A DNA stretch of 5,287 nucleotides, taken from positions 1 through 5,287 of the forward strand of contig CAKSXP010000138.1 in assembly GCA_934515035.1 (NCBI GenBank). Reading direction: 5' to 3'. Of the stretch, positions 1-5,287 are shown in pieces. The position numbers and the translations under genes are program-made. Within the stretch, counting starts at the first letter, position 1. Each line of letters begins with the position of its first letter. The notes under the pieces were generated by a model. The model ran no database searches and was not told the DNA's origin. It saw nothing but the letters and a program-made list of their open reading frames with translations. The stretch is from an uncultured Oscillospiraceae bacterium. GTDB lineage: Bacteria; Bacillota; Clostridia; Oscillospirales; Oscillospiraceae.

Positions 1-775
1 ACAGGCTTTGAGCTTCCTCCGGCGTGAGGCCCTTTTTGATCTCCTCCCAGCAGAGCTTTGCCGCGGCAAGGCTGTGATTCCCGTCCCCGACGGCGAAAAC
101 CGCCGGCGCTTTGCCGGACGGACCGTACTTTTTTTCAAGCACGGCCGGGTCTCCCAGCGCGCCGACAAGTTCTTCTATCCTTTCGGCCTCTCGGCCGCTT
201 ATCCTGCGCCCTTTAAGACGGCCTCCGCCCTGCATGAGGTCGAAGTCATAGAGCTCCTCCCGCGCCGCCGTTTCCGCCGCGCGCATGACGCCGTCCTCCG
301 GATCGTCGATGAACACGATGGTATGCGGCATCTCCAGCGGTGCCTGCATACGCACCTTCACCCTCGCGGGAAGCCGTTCGGCCACAGTCCCCTCCGTGGC
401 GCGGACAGGCGATGACGAGCCGGGCGCATAGTCATAGGCCTCGATATCCAGCAGGCCGACGAGCCCGCGGCGCACGCCCCCTCCGGAAAGGGTCCGCTCG
501 ACATAGACAAGGGAATCCTCCAGCGTTCTGAACACGCCGTTTTCCAGATACCTACGCATATCGCCCGTTATATCCGCCGCCGCGCCGCGCTCCGTGCGCA
601 GCCACGCCTCCGGCAGCATCATGCGCAGGGACGACGGGGCTTCGCCCACGGTCTCTTCCACCTGCCGCCAATACTGCGGTTCGGAGGAGAACTGGTCGCA
701 CGCAACGACGCTCCAGGTCTCAAAATTTTCCCTCGGAATAAGTATATCCCCTTTTATGAATATCCTATCGGACAT
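1..775 (-). CDS. DUF1015 family protein, N-terminal 258 residues (3' end beyond window)
   Basis: An uninterrupted minus-strand frame runs from the ATG at 775-773 to the window edge and translates to 258 residues starting MSDRIFIKGDILIPRE. Hallmarks of the DUF1015 family are visible. The N-terminus has WSVVACDQFSSEPQYW (residues 21-36). A conserved block of the form YDYxxGSxSPVRATEGT lies near 114-130, followed by ERLPARVKVR, and GDGNHSLAAAK lies at 230-240. Family members are usually over 400 residues, so roughly a third or more is missing off the left edge. A Shine-Dalgarno AGGGAG (minus strand, 790-785) sits 9 nt before the ATG, which supports this start. The biochemical role of DUF1015 is not established; from memory it often neighbours serine-biosynthesis genes in clostridia, but that cannot be seen here. 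A strong terminator separates it from the NUDIX gene upstream, so it should have its own promoter in 776-887; I found no convincing one. It is probably unrelated to the catabolic operon. Confidence 0.9.
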   Translation of the reverse strand, partial: MSDRIFIKGDILIPRENFETWSVVACDQFSSEPQYWRQVEETVGEAPSSLRMMLPEAWLRTERGAAADITGDMRRYLENGVFRTLEDSLVYVERTLSGGGVRRGLVGLLDIEAYDYAPGSSSPVRATEGTVAERLPARVKVRMQAPLEMPHTIVFIDDPEDGVMRAAETAAREELYDFDLMQGGGRLKGRRISGREAERIEELVGALGDPAVLEKKYGPSGKAPAVFAVGDGNHSLAAAKLCWEEIKKGLTPEEAQSL

Positions 776-887
776 GGCAGCAGGCTCCCTGAAATAAAGT
801 TTTTCGTAATATGATATACTAGCACAACCGCTTAAAGCACGCAATGCCGGATTTTATTTTTGGAGCTTTTGCAGGCTTTCAGGGCAG

Positions 888-923
888 AAAAAGCGTCCCG
901 CCGGGACATATCCCGGCGGGACG
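888..923 (-). terminator. Strong Rho-independent terminator after the NUDIX gene
   Basis: A perfect 13-bp, almost all-GC stem pairs 894-906 with 911-923 around a 4-nt loop (907-910). On the minus strand it is followed by one C and then five T (892-888). It begins 5 nt after the NUDIX stop codon (929-931), so it ends the hxlR-NUDIX transcript. The opposite side lacks a comparable T-run, so it looks unidirectional. Confidence 0.93.
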
Positions 924-928
924 GCATA

Positions 929-1504
929 TCATTCGACCGTTGCAAGCACAGGCACGATGATCTGTGACCAGGTCTCCATTTTCGGCGACAGATCCCAGAG
1001 CTCCGAACGCCTGAGCCACAACCCTGCGAGCTTTTCCGTCTCCTTTACGCGCACCTCTCCGGACGTCGTCAGCGTATAGAAAAAGCCCAGATGCACGCTG
1101 CCGACTTCATTTGAATCATCGTTTATGACTCCACGCAGAGTAAGGTCGCCGAAGTCGGTCATATATACCTCCTCGCCGATCTCCCGGCGCAGGCCGTTCA
1201 TAAGCGAATCATCGTCGCCCGGATTGATATGCCCGCCGACGCCCAGCGAGATCATCCCGTGCAGGCGCGTCTCGCCGCCTCTGTTCAGCCGCGTTGTCGA
1301 AAACACCTGTGAGCCGCGGCAGATGGCCACATACGGTATGATCTGTTTATATTCGGGATGCTCCTCGGCAAAGGGCCGGGGCAGATACTCGTGCCGGCTC
1401 TCAACGACTCCGGCGATCTCCTTCTCACAGCCGGTTATAAGGCCGTTTTTTCCCTTTATATACGGAGCGAGAAGCTCCGTCTTTACGACAAGGACGTTTT
1501 CCAT
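929..1504 (-). CDS. NUDIX-fold hydrolase with a degenerate Nudix box
   Basis: This 191-residue protein carries a recognisable Nudix region at about residues 86-115: LGVGGHINPGDDDS, then REIGEE (107-112), which gives the R-E-U-x-E-E core with metal-binding E111 and E112. The box is not canonical. The first conserved Glu position is D99, the Gly expected 5 residues before it is Ile, and the Gly after EE is replaced (EEVYM). The N-terminal ~85 residues (GKNGLI, then KQIIPYVAICRG, then GGETRLHG) look like a distinctive bacterial NUDIX subfamily often loosely annotated as phosphoesterase. Substrate is unknown. The ATG is preceded by GGGGA 10 nt upstream, and this site lies inside the last codons of the HxlR gene, which ends only 6 nt before. 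The two are therefore co-transcribed and probably translationally coupled. No signal peptide is seen; cytoplasmic. The fold call is confident; the activity is not. Confidence 0.9.
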   Translation of the reverse strand: MENVLVVKTELLAPYIKGKNGLITGCEKEIAGVVESRHEYLPRPFAEEHPEYKQIIPYVAICRGSQVFSTTRLNRGGETRLHGMISLGVGGHINPGDDDSLMNGLRREIGEEVYMTDFGDLTLRGVINDDSNEVGSVHLGFFYTLTTSGEVRVKETEKLAGLWLRRSELWDLSPKMETWSQIIVPVLATVE

Positions 1505-1510
1505 ATACGC

Positions 1511-1927
1511 TTATTCCCCACTTTCGTAGTCGTATCCGAGAGCCGTCATGATATCGCCGAGCTCTTCGGTGTATTTTTCGCTTCTGTGGACGTCAAAGGC
1601 GTCGCGGTCGATCTCGATGCCCAGCTCGTACATACGCCGTATGCTCCATATGTACAGTGCGTCCAGCGCGGGTATGAGCTCTTCTCCGAGCGGCGTCAGC
1701 ACATACTCTACCTTCAGCGGTATGGTGTTGTACTGTATCCGCTCGACAAGTCCGTCGTCAGCCAGTTCCCTGAGCTGTTCGGCGAGCACCTTTTCGCTTA
1801 TCGGCAGGATCTTTCGCGTCTCGTTGAAGCGTATACAGCCATAGTTGTGGATATGGTGAAGTATCGTCATCTTCCATTTTCCGAAAAGGCATTTACGCAC
1901 ATAATGATATGGGTTCACACCCGGCAT
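1511..1927 (-). CDS. HxlR/DUF24-family winged-helix transcriptional regulator
   Basis: This 138-residue protein has the HxlR architecture. FGKWKMTILHHI (15-26) opens the winged-helix domain. RFNETRKILPISEKVLAEQL (33-52) spans the recognition region. LADDGLVER (55-63) leads into the wing, and KVEYVLTPLGEELIPALDAL (72-91) is the family's characteristic strand and C-terminal dimerisation helix. Family members bind palindromic operators as dimers, and several sense quinones, aldehydes or aromatics. The usual N-terminal 'CP' redox cysteine position is occupied by N5-P6 here; cysteines occur instead at 13 and 31. The start is well supported by AGGAGGTG ending 5 nt before the ATG. The gene is transcribed divergently from the SDR-dehydrogenase-cyclase-BKACE operon across a 206-bp spacer with two dyads. 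It is thus the likely autoregulated local repressor or activator of that operon, which is inference. The NUDIX gene follows 6 nt downstream. Confidence 0.95.
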   Translation of the reverse strand: MPGVNPYHYVRKCLFGKWKMTILHHIHNYGCIRFNETRKILPISEKVLAEQLRELADDGLVERIQYNTIPLKVEYVLTPLGEELIPALDALYIWSIRRMYELGIEIDRDAFDVHRSEKYTEELGDIMTALGYDYESGE

Positions 1928-1971
1928 ACCGGCACCTCCTCAGGCAGCTTTTGCGCTTGTCCGCACTGCCG

Positions 1972-1980
1972 ATTATAGCA
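1972..1980 (-). promoter_or_regulatory. Extended -10 promoter of the hxlR-NUDIX unit
   Basis: On the minus strand this reads TGCTATAAT, a perfect -10 hexamer preceded by the extended TGn element. At a 17-bp spacing the -35 position (2000-1995) reads TTTTCT, which is weak; extended -10 promoters tolerate that. Transcription would start near 1965, leaving a short leader before the hxlR ATG at 1927. Confidence 0.7.
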
Positions 1981-2025
1981 TATCGCGGGCGCGAAGAAAA
2001 GAGCCAGGTTACAAAAAAGTTAGTC

Positions 2026-2043
2026 ACTTACAATATTGTGTGT
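2026..2043. promoter_or_regulatory. Imperfect 18-bp palindrome, candidate HxlR operator
   Basis: ACTTACAAT is followed directly by ATTGTGTGT. The arms match as inverted repeats at 7 of 9 positions, with a perfect 10-bp core ACAATATTGT (2030-2039). From memory, HxlR/DUF24 regulators such as CatR and YodB use TTAC...GTAA-type half sites, which the left arm resembles. It lies about 60-80 bp upstream of the predicted hxlR start and about 90 bp before the SDR start codon. A second TTACAA copy lies at 2009-2014. Confidence 0.5.
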
Positions 2044-2044
2044 A

Positions 2045-2073
2045 TTGCATAAACAGCCGAAGTGGACTATGCT
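2045..2073 (+). promoter_or_regulatory. Possible promoter of the catabolic operon (weak match)
   Basis: TTGCAT (2045-2050) and TATGCT (2068-2073) are separated by 17 bp. Each hexamer matches consensus only moderately, and the -10 overlaps the left arm of the inverted repeat at 2063-2085. An alternative -10, TACAAT (2091-2096), is a better hexamer but has no -35, which would suit an activator-dependent promoter. The sequence does not decide between them. Confidence 0.3.
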
Positions 2074-2085
2074 GAATATAGTCCA
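2063..2085. promoter_or_regulatory. Perfect 8+8 bp inverted repeat, candidate operator of the catabolic operon
   Basis: TGGACTAT (2063-2070), a 7-nt spacer, then ATAGTCCA (2078-2085). The arms are exact reverse complements. No T-run follows it, and it lies 48 bp before the SDR start codon in an AT-rich promoter zone, so it looks like a protein-binding site rather than a terminator. Its inner ACTAT/ATAGT halves resemble the YodB-box style known for HxlR/DUF24 repressors (recalled, not checked). It overlaps the candidate promoter. Confidence 0.65.
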
Positions 2086-2120
2086 AATAATACAATATAG
2101 TATAGCTAATATTTGTTACA

Positions 2121-2125
2121 GGAGG
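2121..2125 (+). promoter_or_regulatory. Ribosome binding site that fixes the SDR start
   Basis: GGAGG lies 8 nt before the ATG at 2134. It lies downstream of an in-frame TTG at 2113, so that longer start would put the ribosome site inside the coding region. ATG 2134 is the start. Confidence 0.9.
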
Positions 2126-2133
2126 AAAAATCA

Positions 2134-2928
2134 ATGGTTCCCGTACAGAAAGATTTTGTAAACAACATGTTCTCCGTTGAGGGCAAGGTCGCTCTCGTCA
2201 CCGGCGCCACCGGCGCGCTGGGCTGCGTCCTCGCAAAGGGCTACGGCTACGCCGGTGCCAAGGTCTTTATGACCGGCCGCAACGAAGCCAAGCTCAAGGC
2301 TCTCGAGGAGGAGTTCAAGGCCGAGGGTATCGACTGCGCATACTATGTCGCCGACCCCGCCGTTGAGGAAGATGTCAAGGCCTGCATCGCCGCCTGCGTC
2401 GAGAAATACGGCGAGGTCAACATCCTTGCTATCTGCCACGGCTACAACAAGGTCCAGAACATTCTTGACCAGTCCGTCGAGGATTGGCAGAAGGTCATGG
2501 ACGCCGACTGCAAGAGCGTTTACATCGTCCTCAAGTATGTCGCCGAGCAGATGGTCAAGCAGGGCAAGGGCGGCAAGATGGTCGTCGTCACCTCCCAGCG
2601 CTCCAAGCGCGGCATGGCCGGCTACACCGGATACTGCACTTCCAAGGGCGGCGCGGACCTCATGGTCTCCAGCCTCGCCTGCGAGCTCTCCGCTCAGCAC
2701 CACATCAACGTCAACTCCCTCTGCCCGACTGTTTTCCGCAGCGAGCTGACCGAGTGGATGTTCGACCCCGAATCCGCCGTCTACCAGAACTTCCTCAAGC
2801 GCGAGCCCATCGGACGCCTGGCCGAGCCCTCCGATTTCGTCGGCTATGCTCTGTTCCTGTCCTCCGCCGCTTCCGACTTCATAACCGGCGCCAACTGCGA
2901 CTGCTCCGGTGGCTACCTCACCTGCTGA
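2134..2928 (+). CDS. SDR-family reductase, probable phloroglucinol reductase (PGR)
   Basis: A 264-residue classical short-chain dehydrogenase/reductase of normal family length. The Rossmann cofactor motif TGATGALG is at 23-30. TGRN (47-50) ends beta-2 with Arg49, which suggests NADP(H). The catalytic Ser is S154 and YCTSK (167-171) supplies Tyr167 and Lys171. INVNSLCPT (191-199) and [11 protein letters not shown] near the C-terminus complete the fold. Unusual substitutions are CHG (101-103) where NAG is typical, D125 at the catalytic-tetrad Asn position, and PT instead of PG at 198-199. Proposed reaction: NADPH-dependent reduction of phloroglucinol to dihydrophloroglucinol in the cytoplasm, the dearomatising first step. 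That assignment rests mainly on the cyclase, dehydrogenase and BKACE genes downstream; the SDR fold alone would not give it. It is the first gene of the operon, 25 nt before the next gene. Alternatives are another ketone or polyol dehydrogenase of the SDR family. Confidence 0.95.
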
Positions 2929-2936
2929 TCTTGTAA

Positions 2937-2956
2937 AGGAGATGATGGCTGCTATG
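2937..2956 (+). promoter_or_regulatory. Crowded translation start of the dehydrogenase
   Basis: AGGAG (2937-2941) is followed at once by in-frame ATGs at 2942, 2945 and 2954. The first two are too close to the Shine-Dalgarno (0 and 3 nt); the third is 12 nt away, somewhat far. Family alignment places the dinucleotide-fold strand directly after MPIKN, favouring 2954, with 2945 as the fallback. Confidence 0.6.
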
Positions 2957-3880
2957 CCGATCAAAAACATCCTCATCGCCGGCGGCGGAATGATGGGCAA
3001 AAACATTGCCTTCGTTTTCACGTCCAATCCTGAGTTTCAGGTCGCCGTTTACGACCTCTACCAGACCGACGTTTACGCCGGGATACGCACAAACTGCGCG
3101 CAGCTTCTTGAAAAGGGCGTCATAACCGAAGCCGAGCTCGAGGAACGCCTGTCCCGCATCAGCTTCACGACCGATCTTGAAAGCGATCTCATAAAGAACG
3201 CCGACCTCGTTGTCGAGGCCGTTTTCGAGGATATGGCGATCAAGCAGGAGACCTTCGCAAAGCTGGAGGCGCGCTGCCGCAGGGATACCATCTTCTGCAC
3301 GAACTCTTCCGTCATGAGTCCGTCCCAGATCTCCGCAAAGCTCGAGCACCGCGAGCGCTTTGTCGGAACTCATTTCTGGAACCCCGGCCACCTCATCCCG
3401 CTGGTCGAGGTCATCAAGTCCGACGCCACCAGCGACGAGACCGCAAACACCGTCATGGAGGTCCTCGCCTCCGTCGGCAAGAAGCCCGTCCTCTGCAAAA
3501 AGGACGTTCCCGGCTTCATCGCGAACCGTATGCAGCACGCGCTCTGGCGCGAGGCTATTTCCATCGTCGAGCACGGCATCGCAGATGCAAAGACCGTTGA
3601 CGACGCCGTCAAATACAGCTTCGGCCTGCGCCTGCCCCAGCTCGGCCCGCTCGAAAACGCGGACATGGTCGGAACCGACCTGACCTACAACATCCACGAC
3701 TACATTCTCCGTGACCTTGAGGACAGCCACAGTCCCTCCCCCCTGCTCAAGCAGCTGCGCGACGAGGGCAAGATCGGCTTCAAGACCGGAGAGGGCTTCC
3801 AGAAGTGGACCGAGGAAGAGATCAGCCAGTCCAACGCCGACCTCAACGAATACCTTATCCGCATGCTCTACGGCAAATAA
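2954..3880 (+). CDS. 3-hydroxyacyl-CoA-dehydrogenase-family enzyme, probable 3-hydroxy-5-oxohexanoate dehydrogenase (HOHDH)
   Basis: 308 residues, the usual length of a single-function HAD-family enzyme. The N-terminal NAD domain has AGGGMMG (9-15) and Asp34 at the end of beta-2 (VAVYDLY), indicating NAD. Further marks are VVEAVFEDMAIK (86-97) and TNSSVMSPSQI (116-126). The catalytic His is H140 in GTHFWNPGHLIPLVEV, with its partner Glu at E152. VPGFIANR (185-192) and GPLENADMVGTD (231-242) mark the C-terminal domain. HFWNPGHLIPLVEV differs from the HFFNP-type motif of acyl-CoA enzymes and is closer to members acting on free hydroxy acids, such as carnitine or gulonate dehydrogenases. In this operon the likely reaction is NAD-dependent oxidation of (S)-3-hydroxy-5-oxohexanoate to triacetate, which the BKACE encoded downstream would cleave. 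The family call is secure; the substrate is inferred. Carnitine dehydrogenase is the main alternative. Confidence 0.95.
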   Translation: MPIKNILIAGGGMMGKNIAFVFTSNPEFQVAVYDLYQTDVYAGIRTNCAQLLEKGVITEAELEERLSRISFTTDLESDLIKNADLVVEAVFEDMAIKQETFAKLEARCRRDTIFCTNSSVMSPSQISAKLEHRERFVGTHFWNPGHLIPLVEVIKSDATSDETANTVMEVLASVGKKPVLCKKDVPGFIANRMQHALWREAISIVEHGIADAKTVDDAVKYSFGLRLPQLGPLENADMVGTDLTYNIHDYILRDLEDSHSPSPLLKQLRDEGKIGFKTGEGFQKWTEEEISQSNADLNEYLIRMLYGK

Positions 3881-3940
3881 GCCGTTTTCCTTAAGCAGAG
3901 AAATCACACAAGAAACATTTAATTTTGGAGGTAATCATTC

Positions 3941-4954
3941 ATGGGCAAGAAAGTTTTTGTTGACCTGACCCACCCCTTCGGAGCCGAAATCCCCCGCTGG
4001 CCCTATTTTGACAAGCCCGTCATCGACAACACCCACACGATGGCAAAGGGCGGCGTTCTGACCCAGAGCATCAAGTGCACCATGCACACCGGCACCCACT
4101 GCGACGCTCCCCGTCACGTCATGGAGTATGAATTCGACGGCCGCCGCGCCCGTTACACCCATGAGATGCCCGTTGACGCCTACACCGGCGAAGCCGTCGT
4201 TCTGAAGATCGACATCGAGCCCTGGGGCCTCATCACCGACAAGCATCTCGACGCTGCCTGCGAGAAGTACGGCATCAACCAGGCCGACCTTGAGGGCAAG
4301 ATCATCTGCCTGAACACCGGTATGCACCGCCTGTTCGACGACAGCAAGGCTTATTATCACTATGCCGCCGGCACCGGCGTTGAGGCTGGTAAGTGGTTCG
4401 TCAAGAACAAGGTAAAGTGCGTCGCCATGGACTCCCAGGCTCTTGACCACCCCCTGCACACCGCCATGGGCAACAATGGCATGACCCGCATGAACCTGCT
4501 GGGCGCCACCGGCAAGCCCATCACCGAGGAGTACAAGGAGCTGTTCGGCGAGGAAGCCTATGCCAAGTTCGACAAGTTCGAGTACATCCGCATCTTCGGT
4601 CAGGAAGCCTATGACGAGCTCTACGGCGATCTGGAGAACATCGGCGTCTGGGGCACTTGGGAACCCTGCCACAAGGAAATGCTCGGCCACGGCATCGTCG
4701 GCGTCGAGAACCTCGGCGGCGATCTGGACATGATCCCGGCCGGCACCTGGTTCCGCTTCAACTGCTTCCCCCTCCGCTGGTACATGGGCGACGGTTCCAT
4801 GGCCCGCTGCGTTGCCGAGATCGACGAGGACCTGCTCGTGAAGGGCGTTCCCGAGCGCACCTATGCCTACGGCGGCACCGGCTACGGCTTCTCCGAGGGC
4901 AACGGAGACAGCGGTCTTGAGTACATGCAGAAGCTCTTCAGCCGCAACAAATAA
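3941..4954 (+). CDS. Metal-dependent cyclase-family hydrolase, probable dihydrophloroglucinol cyclohydrolase (DPGC)
   Basis: 337 residues with the signature of the cyclase family (PF04199; kynurenine formamidase and isatin hydrolase relatives). HTGTHCDAPRH is at 49-59, with metal ligands H49, H53, D55 and H59. The C-terminal block GVENLGGDLDMIP (254-266) is followed by PLRWYMGDGSMARCVAEID (277-295). It is much longer than the roughly 210-260 residues usual for the family. The extra length lies mainly in a charged segment at about 190-245 and in a Gly/Tyr-rich tail after 305. Proposed role: hydrolytic C-C ring opening of dihydrophloroglucinol to 3-hydroxy-5-oxohexanoate, cytoplasmic and divalent-metal dependent. 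GGAGG lies 9 nt before the ATG, and the gap to the dehydrogenase is 60 nt with no terminator visible. All 16 Ile codons are ATC, suggesting strong expression. The nearest alternatives are kynurenine formamidase or another amide or lactone hydrolase, but no tryptophan-degradation genes are present. Confidence 0.94.
   Translation: MGKKVFVDLTHPFGAEIPRWPYFDKPVIDNTHTMAKGGVLTQSIKCTMHTGTHCDAPRHVMEYEFDGRRARYTHEMPVDAYTGEAVVLKIDIEPWGLITDKHLDAACEKYGINQADLEGKIICLNTGMHRLFDDSKAYYHYAAGTGVEAGKWFVKNKVKCVAMDSQALDHPLHTAMGNNGMTRMNLLGATGKPITEEYKELFGEEAYAKFDKFEYIRIFGQEAYDELYGDLENIGVWGTWEPCHKEMLGHGIVGVENLGGDLDMIPAGTWFRFNCFPLRWYMGDGSMARCVAEIDEDLLVKGVPERTYAYGGTGYGFSEGNGDSGLEYMQKLFSRNK
4544..4613 (+). repeat. Short imperfect direct repeat inside the cyclase gene
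   Basis: Two 19-bp copies (4544-4562 and 4595-4613) match at 17 positions and lie exactly 17 codons apart. Each encodes an FG-[EQ]-EAY motif, at residues 202-207 and 219-224. The repeat lies in the segment that makes this protein longer than typical family members, so it may record a small internal duplication or a repeated helix. Confidence 0.6.
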
Positions 4955-4977
4955 TTTTTATCGAAGCACACATTTTT

Positions 4978-5006
4978 GGGGGCGTTTGACATAAGCGCCC
5001 CCTTTT
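4978..5006 (+). terminator. Intra-operon intrinsic terminator or attenuator between cyclase and BKACE
   Basis: GGGGGCGTTT (4978-4987) pairs with AAGCGCCCCC (4993-5002), a 10-bp stem with one G-U pair and a 5-nt loop, followed by TTTT and CC. It begins 23 nt after the cyclase stop and ends 30 nt before the BKACE start. No promoter is visible between it and the BKACE gene. It probably causes partial termination, or protects the 3' end of the upstream mRNA, and so sets a lower level for the downstream gene. Confidence 0.8.
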
Positions 5007-5036
5007 CCAAAGCTATTCAAGAAAGGCGTGTCAAAA

Positions 5037-5287
5037 ATGGCAGATCTCAAGAACAAGAGAATAATCACCGTTGCGACCACCGGCGCATGGCCCACCAAGG
5101 AAAACACCCCCAATGTTCCCATCGAGCCCGCCGAGATCGCCGAAGAAATCTATAACTGCTGGAAAGAAGGCGCCGCCGTCGCACACATCCACTGCCGCGA
5201 CGACGAGGGCAAGGCAGCTATGAAGTTCGAGAAGTTTGAGGAAGTCGTGACCCTCATGCGCACCAAGTATTCCGACTGCGACATCAT
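5037..5287 (+). CDS. Beta-keto acid cleavage enzyme (BKACE/DUF849), N-terminal 83 residues; probable triacetate acetoacetate-lyase (TAL)
   Basis: The frame starts MADLKNKRIITVATTGAWP and stays open to the right edge. It has the BKACE N-terminus: a first beta-strand IITVATTGA, then IEPAEIAEEIYNCWKEGAA (29-47), then AHIHCRD (49-55). H50 and H52 match the H-x-H zinc ligands of family members such as Kce. Full-length members are about 270-310 residues, so most of the protein, including the third metal ligand, lies beyond the window. BKACE enzymes condense a beta-keto acid with acetyl-CoA and split it into acetoacetate and a new acyl-CoA. With triacetate as substrate the products would be acetoacetate and acetoacetyl-CoA, completing phloroglucinol breakdown into central metabolism. 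The Shine-Dalgarno AAAGG (5022-5026) sits 10 nt before the ATG. The substrate is inferred from the neighbours; other beta-keto acids (3-keto-5-aminohexanoate, dehydrocarnitine) are used by relatives. Confidence 0.93.
   Translation, partial: MADLKNKRIITVATTGAWPTKENTPNVPIEPAEIAEEIYNCWKEGAAVAHIHCRDDEGKAAMKFEKFEEVVTLMRTKYSDCDI

Follow-up and report, generated by a model that had tools for sequence, protein, structure and literature searches.

Predicted phloroglucinol-degradation genes in a single row on a contig of an uncultured Oscillospiraceae bacterium

Phloroglucinol is a ring that remains from plant polyphenols. In the present study, a stretch of 5,287 nucleotides from an uncultured Oscillospiraceae bacterium (assembly GCA_934515035.1, contig CAKSXP010000138.1, positions 1 to 5,287; hereafter the window) was analysed, and the four enzymes of the clostridial phloroglucinol pathway very probably have homologues encoded in it, the last of them cut after 83 residues; with these enzymes, the host would open the ring and likely ferment the products. 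The four genes follow one another as listed here (aa, amino acids).

Positions 2134-2928, plus strand: PGR, predicted NADPH-dependent phloroglucinol reductase; SDR, 264 aa; match to adh_short_C2 at 8.7e-41.
Positions 2954-3880, plus strand: TfD, predicted (S)-3-hydroxy-5-oxohexanoate dehydrogenase; 3HCDH fold, 308 aa; match to 3HCDH_N at 2.3e-53.
Positions 3941-4954, plus strand: DPGC, predicted metal-dependent dihydrophloroglucinol cyclohydrolase; cyclase family, 337 aa; match to PF04199 (Cyclase) at 1.4e-30.
Positions 5037-5287, plus strand: TAL, predicted triacetate acetoacetate-lyase, first 83 aa; BKACE family, match to PF05853 at 3.1e-24; cut by the window end.

The intergenic gaps between these genes are 25, 60, and 82 nucleotides (nt), PGR is preceded by AGGAGG at 2120-2125, and the start taken for TfD is the ATG at 2954, with alternative in-frame ATGs at 2942 and 2945. 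PGR would reduce phloroglucinol with NADPH to dihydrophloroglucinol, whose ring DPGC would open by a metal-dependent retro-Claisen reaction to (S)-3-hydroxy-5-oxohexanoate; TfD would oxidise this compound to triacetate, TAL would convert triacetate and acetyl-CoA into acetoacetate and acetoacetyl-CoA, and these two products would enter acetate/butyrate fermentation. We infer all of these activities from homology to the pathway of Clostridium scatologenes, whose four enzymes have been reconstituted (PMC10470551, cited throughout for passages of its main text). The host can likely live on phloroglucinol, and would draw energy from it. A preliminary description of the window had claimed that the four families are encoded consecutively on one strand, and this is borne out by the open reading frames and Pfam matches, with the catalytic residues that it named all present (SDR Y167/K171, HAD H140/E152, cyclase H49/H53/D55/H59, and BKACE H50/H52). 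It had also spoken of a candidate complete phloroglucinol operon; the four enzyme families with their diagnostic residues stand, but completeness is not visible within the window, because only the N-terminal third of TAL lies in it, 83 of about 282 aa.

The PGR has an SDR fold with the catalytic pair Y167/K171 and is identical to PDB chain 5g4k at 221 of 264 positions (83.7%) across the full length (498 bits), and the next PDB sequence beyond 5g4k and 5g4l matches it at 117 bits. We take 5g4k and 5g4l to be the PGR of Clostridium sp. ATCC BAA-442. The 43 substitutions that separate the window protein from 5g4k leave the Tyr/Lys pair and TGRN at residues 47-50 identical. By our own mapping, this TGRN is taken as the PGR-type NADPH-binding motif, which is given as TR(S/N) in PMC10470551. 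According to the same source, crystals of a PGR from Clostridium sp. ATCC BAA-442 had been obtained before, and the assayed PGR of C. scatologenes (CsPGR) is 59.54% identical to it; if 5g4k is the BAA-442 protein, the PGR of the window is nearer to 5g4k than CsPGR is. The preliminary description had left the SDR to be placed by phylogeny, and a tree of 76 rows puts it inside a 57-row clade (SH-aLRT 100) together with 5g4k and both PGRs of Eubacterium ramulus, the outgroup of this tree being thin (two true SDRs at about 28% identity, while two rows labelled outgroup are PGR fragments).

This tree, together with the diagnostic residues of DPGC, TfD, and TAL, supports the assignment of the four proteins to the clostridial phloroglucinol route, as had been proposed. 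First, the metal site H49/H53/D55/H59 of DPGC is kept in all 81 aligned rows, the window copy included. The residues Trp20/Tyr22 separate DPGC from isatin hydrolase, which has Ile32/Leu34 (PMC10470551); the window protein carries W20/Y22, and 80 of the 81 rows agree in each of these columns, the remaining row being a gap. On these two residues and an identity of 78.6% to the E. ramulus cluster protein, the cyclase is predicted to be a DPGC. Its homologues number 502 at E<=1e-30, the closest among the best 120 of these being 92% identical, and its PDB relatives are weak (best E 1.9e-4). A scan with the cyclase alignment for viral relatives gave six pattern matches, none of which is a relative. 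Second, TfD is described as keeping the Ser, His, and Asn of 3-hydroxybutyryl-CoA dehydrogenase (HBD) and losing its CoA-binding Lys56 and Asn221 (PMC10470551). Compared with the 4kug chain, the TfD of the window retains S119, H140, E152, and N191 and has V56 and G224 at the positions of HBD Lys56 and Asn221; among 64 aligned TfD relatives, the Asn221 column holds 62 Gly and 2 Ala, and Lys is found in the Lys56 column in 2 of 64. Third, TAL is reported to have Trp in place of the amine-binding Glu14 of Kce (PMC10470551), and the window fragment reads TGAW, with Trp18 at this position and Trp likewise in all 63 relatives called.

The arrangement of these genes was compared with that in relatives by scanning a genome collection with the cyclase alignment, which yielded 241 encoding stretches; the best 80 loci (numbered with the prefix L where single loci are named below) were analysed, with genes called by a hexamer-scored script. 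PGR-TfD-DPGC-TAL are contiguous in the order of the window in 41 of the 80 loci, and the arrangement is therefore not a matter of chance; PGR-TfD-DPGC without a called TAL alongside is found in six more, and all four genes are held by 54. The remark in the preliminary description that the gene order (steps 1, 3, 2, 4) differs from the pathway order is thus correct, and this order is conserved among relatives. The relatives belong to the Oscillospiraceae, Lachnospiraceae, Eubacteriaceae, and Anaerovoracaceae, many being gut or rumen genomes, and the nearest of them make a gut member of the Oscillospiraceae the likely source of the window. Of 398 genomes drawn evenly from the phylum of E. ramulus, E. 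ramulus alone gave a cyclase match at E<=1e-60, so the draw neither reached C. scatologenes nor enlarged the set. The E. ramulus locus (L075, NZ_JRFU01000081.1; by accession, it belongs to record NZ_JRFU00000000.1 cited in PMC10470551) holds contiguous PGR-TfD-DPGC-TAL in the order of the window, with identities of 82.6, 63.3, 78.6, and 62.5% to the window PGR, TfD, DPGC, and 83-aa TAL fragment, respectively; its TAL is followed by genes read as GntR, PTB, and butyrate kinase, the cupin gene described below is divergent, and HxlR lies elsewhere. The C. scatologenes cluster (CsPGR, CsDPGC, CsTfD, and CsTAL) comprises the same four families and shares the diagnostic residues of DPGC, TfD, and TAL with the window as far as PMC10470551 gives them, whereas its order differs, PGR and DPGC having consecutive accessions and TAL and TfD following further on (AKA68207, AKA68208, AKA68213, and AKA68216).

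Near the cluster, some relatives carry CoA-transferase A/B and acetoacetate-CoA ligase genes above the NCBIfam cut-offs, MFS transporters, and PhlG (DAPG hydrolase) domains, as found in scans of one representative of most gene clusters, and genes of some relatives are read as PTB and butyrate kinase. These accessory genes fit phloroglucinol as the substrate.

The window as a whole contains seven readable genes, three on the minus strand and four on the plus strand; the remaining genes and the candidate control elements are as follows.

Positions 2-844, minus strand: DUF1015 gene, cut.
Positions 929-1504, minus strand: NUDIX gene.
Positions 1511-1927, minus strand: HxlR-family regulator, divergent from PGR; match to PF01638 at 4.8e-24.
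Positions 2027-2052, plus strand: conserved footprint CTTAC-N4-TTGTGTGTATTGCATAA upstream of PGR, a candidate for an operator or promoter element; 15 of 17 positions.
Positions 2063-2085, plus strand: perfect 8-bp inverted repeat TGGACTAT-N7-ATAGTCCA, before PGR.
Positions 4978-5002, plus strand: 11-pair hairpin with a short T tail (four T), in the 82-nt gap between DPGC and TAL.

In 44 of the 80 relatives, a divergent HxlR gene immediately precedes PGR or the cupin gene, and the HxlR protein is predicted to control the operon. Within the 45 HxlR intergenics (the window included; last 320 bases of each), ACTTAC occurs in 29 and TGCACA in 32, where Markov shuffles expect 5.5 and 6.2, respectively. 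A footprint score of at least 15 is reached in 10 of the 44 other intergenics, and none of 900 first-order Markov shuffles reaches 14; the remaining intergenics, about 31, have scores that lie in or close to the range of the shuffles. The pattern was derived from the same intergenics on which it was scored, and most of the top scores come from Flavonifractor genomes that are related to one another; shared descent therefore explains part of the footprint. The inverted repeat was set aside as an operator, having no match among the listed repeats of the relatives (at most three per intergenic); it overlaps a sigma-70-like match at 2063-2091, which is itself at chance level. Scans of the window gave two sigma-70 matches against 1.3 expected and five terminators against 3.4 expected, both about chance, and Rfam and tRNA scans of the window gave no matches. 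The gap between DPGC and TAL has a minimum free energy of -22.1 (z -2.09), and 9 of 200 shuffles fold as well. Among 53 relatives with DPGC and TAL in a row, 36 gaps of at least 60 nt fold at -21.5 kcal/mol or lower and 17 gaps of 43 nt or less fold at -4.8 or higher, these being raw values without shuffle control, and longer gaps fold lower anyway. The strongly folding gaps of the relatives differ in sequence. The hairpin is possibly a partial terminator or an RNA-protecting hairpin. Tentatively, and with more doubt than confidence, we propose that HxlR is a dedicated phloroglucinol-responsive regulator binding CTTAC-N4-TTGTGYGTATTGCAYAA before PGR and that the hairpin sets TAL below the ring-opening enzymes.

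Several observations weigh against a phloroglucinol pathway in this cluster. Among the NCBIfam matches listed (for the SDR, 25 of 218), none reaches the cut-off of its model for the four proteins, and the comparison with C. scatologenes consists of residues and identities quoted from PMC10470551, in place of an alignment of the four proteins. For the full-length TALs of four relatives, the best NCBIfam model is KCE of lysine fermentation, at 283-304 bits against a cut-off of 382, ahead of the 3,5-dioxohexanoate model at 206-231 of 430 bits; with the window fragment, that model (NF053538, 3,5-dioxohexanoate:acetyl-CoA acetone transferase) gives 47.8 of 430 bits, again below the cut-off. The TAL call therefore rests on Trp18 and the gene context. 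The TfD slot is diverse, with best matches 34 to 88% identical across loci. It might be supposed that the cluster serves another cyclic 1,3-diketone or keto acid, e.g. a substrate of the resorcinol type or of lysine fermentation, and merely looks like the phloroglucinol set. This is very improbable, as the PGR is so close to the 5g4k reductase, TAL has the Trp and no amine-binding Glu, DPGC has Trp20/Tyr22, and PhlG-type hydrolase domains lie near the cluster in L025, L028, L040, L043, L069, and L080 (and in L067 by its clustering with L080).

Another supposition, slightly less improbable but still very unlikely, is that the route stops early, transcription largely ending at the hairpin after DPGC or TAL being incomplete, so that phloroglucinol would be detoxified and hydroxy-oxohexanoate or triacetate excreted. 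The hairpin with its T tail, which may reduce or end transcription before TAL, and the cut of TAL at the window end are in line with this, as is the position of TfD in relatives. TfD was searched for in ten genomes, E. ramulus serving as a reference for nine whose PGR-DPGC locus holds no close TfD, and in 8 of these nine a TfD of 77-86% identity lies outside the PGR-DPGC locus, so operon integrity is not universal; in Emergencia (L054), the best TfD is only 47% identical. However, TAL has its own start within 82 nt of DPGC, the same layout is common among relatives, the seven relative TALs in the tree listing are full length (282-284 aa), and the T tail of the hairpin is merely four T.

Several side observations concern the composition of the cluster in relatives. 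In L005, L010, L013, L014, L044, L047, L060, and L062, a PGR-DPGC pair occurs with no TfD or TAL called at the locus, and in each of these eight genomes the TfD of 77-86% identity is found elsewhere; loci with neither gene called number 10, of which this search, made for TfD, covered 8, leaving out L050 and L056. The genes of the phloroglucinol pathway can thus lie apart in two places. The TfD slot holds proteins of two to three types, at about 53%, 62%, and at least 80% identity to the TfD of the window, and the adjacent DPGC genes match that of the window at 83-92% identity, as is seen when L007, L011, L016, L017, L030, L031, L033, and others are compared with L001, L009, and L051; this suggests that TfD has been exchanged between clusters. 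Two DPGC genes, 92% and 86% identical to that of the window, lie on separate contigs of the sheep metagenome-assembled genome RGIG5636 (L003 and L046), and the L046 copy adjoins a vinyl-phenol-reductase-like flavoprotein (best NCBIfam match, below the cut-off). A cupin of about 116 aa (L001:7838-8185; PF07883 scanned on L001) accompanies the PGR genes in 51 of the 80 relatives, directly downstream of a divergent HxlR gene in 35 of these 51 loci, and is absent from the window; a Pfam search with a 71-aa piece of it gave no match, whereas the full-length gene matched, and the main text of PMC10470551 nowhere uses the word cupin. Furthermore, four relatives encode a flavoprotein (FAD_binding_2 with a fumarate-reductase flavoprotein C-terminus) fused to a C-terminal PhlG/DAPG-hydrolase domain of the phloretin-hydrolase type.

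L025, positions 13885-16332 and 16819-19281: flavoprotein-PhlG fusions.
L028, positions 4182-6635: flavoprotein-PhlG fusion.
L043, positions 13836-16286: flavoprotein-PhlG fusion.
L040, positions 3962-6193: flavoprotein-PhlG fusion, cut.

These fusions lie near the phloroglucinol cluster and are immediately preceded by a small ferredoxin-like gene, whose 4Fe-4S domains were scanned on its gene-cluster member in L038; in L069, and by sequence clustering also in L067 and L080, the flavoprotein and the PhlG part are encoded separately, side by side. The fusion could be a one-protein reductase-hydrolase freeing phloroglucinol from a flavonoid.

The pathway, its four enzymes, and their spread are already in print, and the window is a new sequence only. 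The idea of a phloroglucinol cluster is not new, because the cluster has been reported in E. ramulus, E. oxidoreducens, F. plautii, and many other bacteria (PMC10470551, mBio 2023), with 12,225 clusters found by cblaster. The cluster described herein adds little to this knowledge, and the loose ends are the regulator footprint and the accessory genes of the relatives. In the passages of PMC10470551 cited here, a transcriptional regulator beside the phloroglucinol genes is the sole mention of control. The accessory genes of the relatives are what a route from flavonoid through phloroglucinol to butyrate would need and, if the proposed roles of HxlR and the hairpin are true, the HxlR element and the hairpin would constitute a control layer of gut phloroglucinol catabolism.
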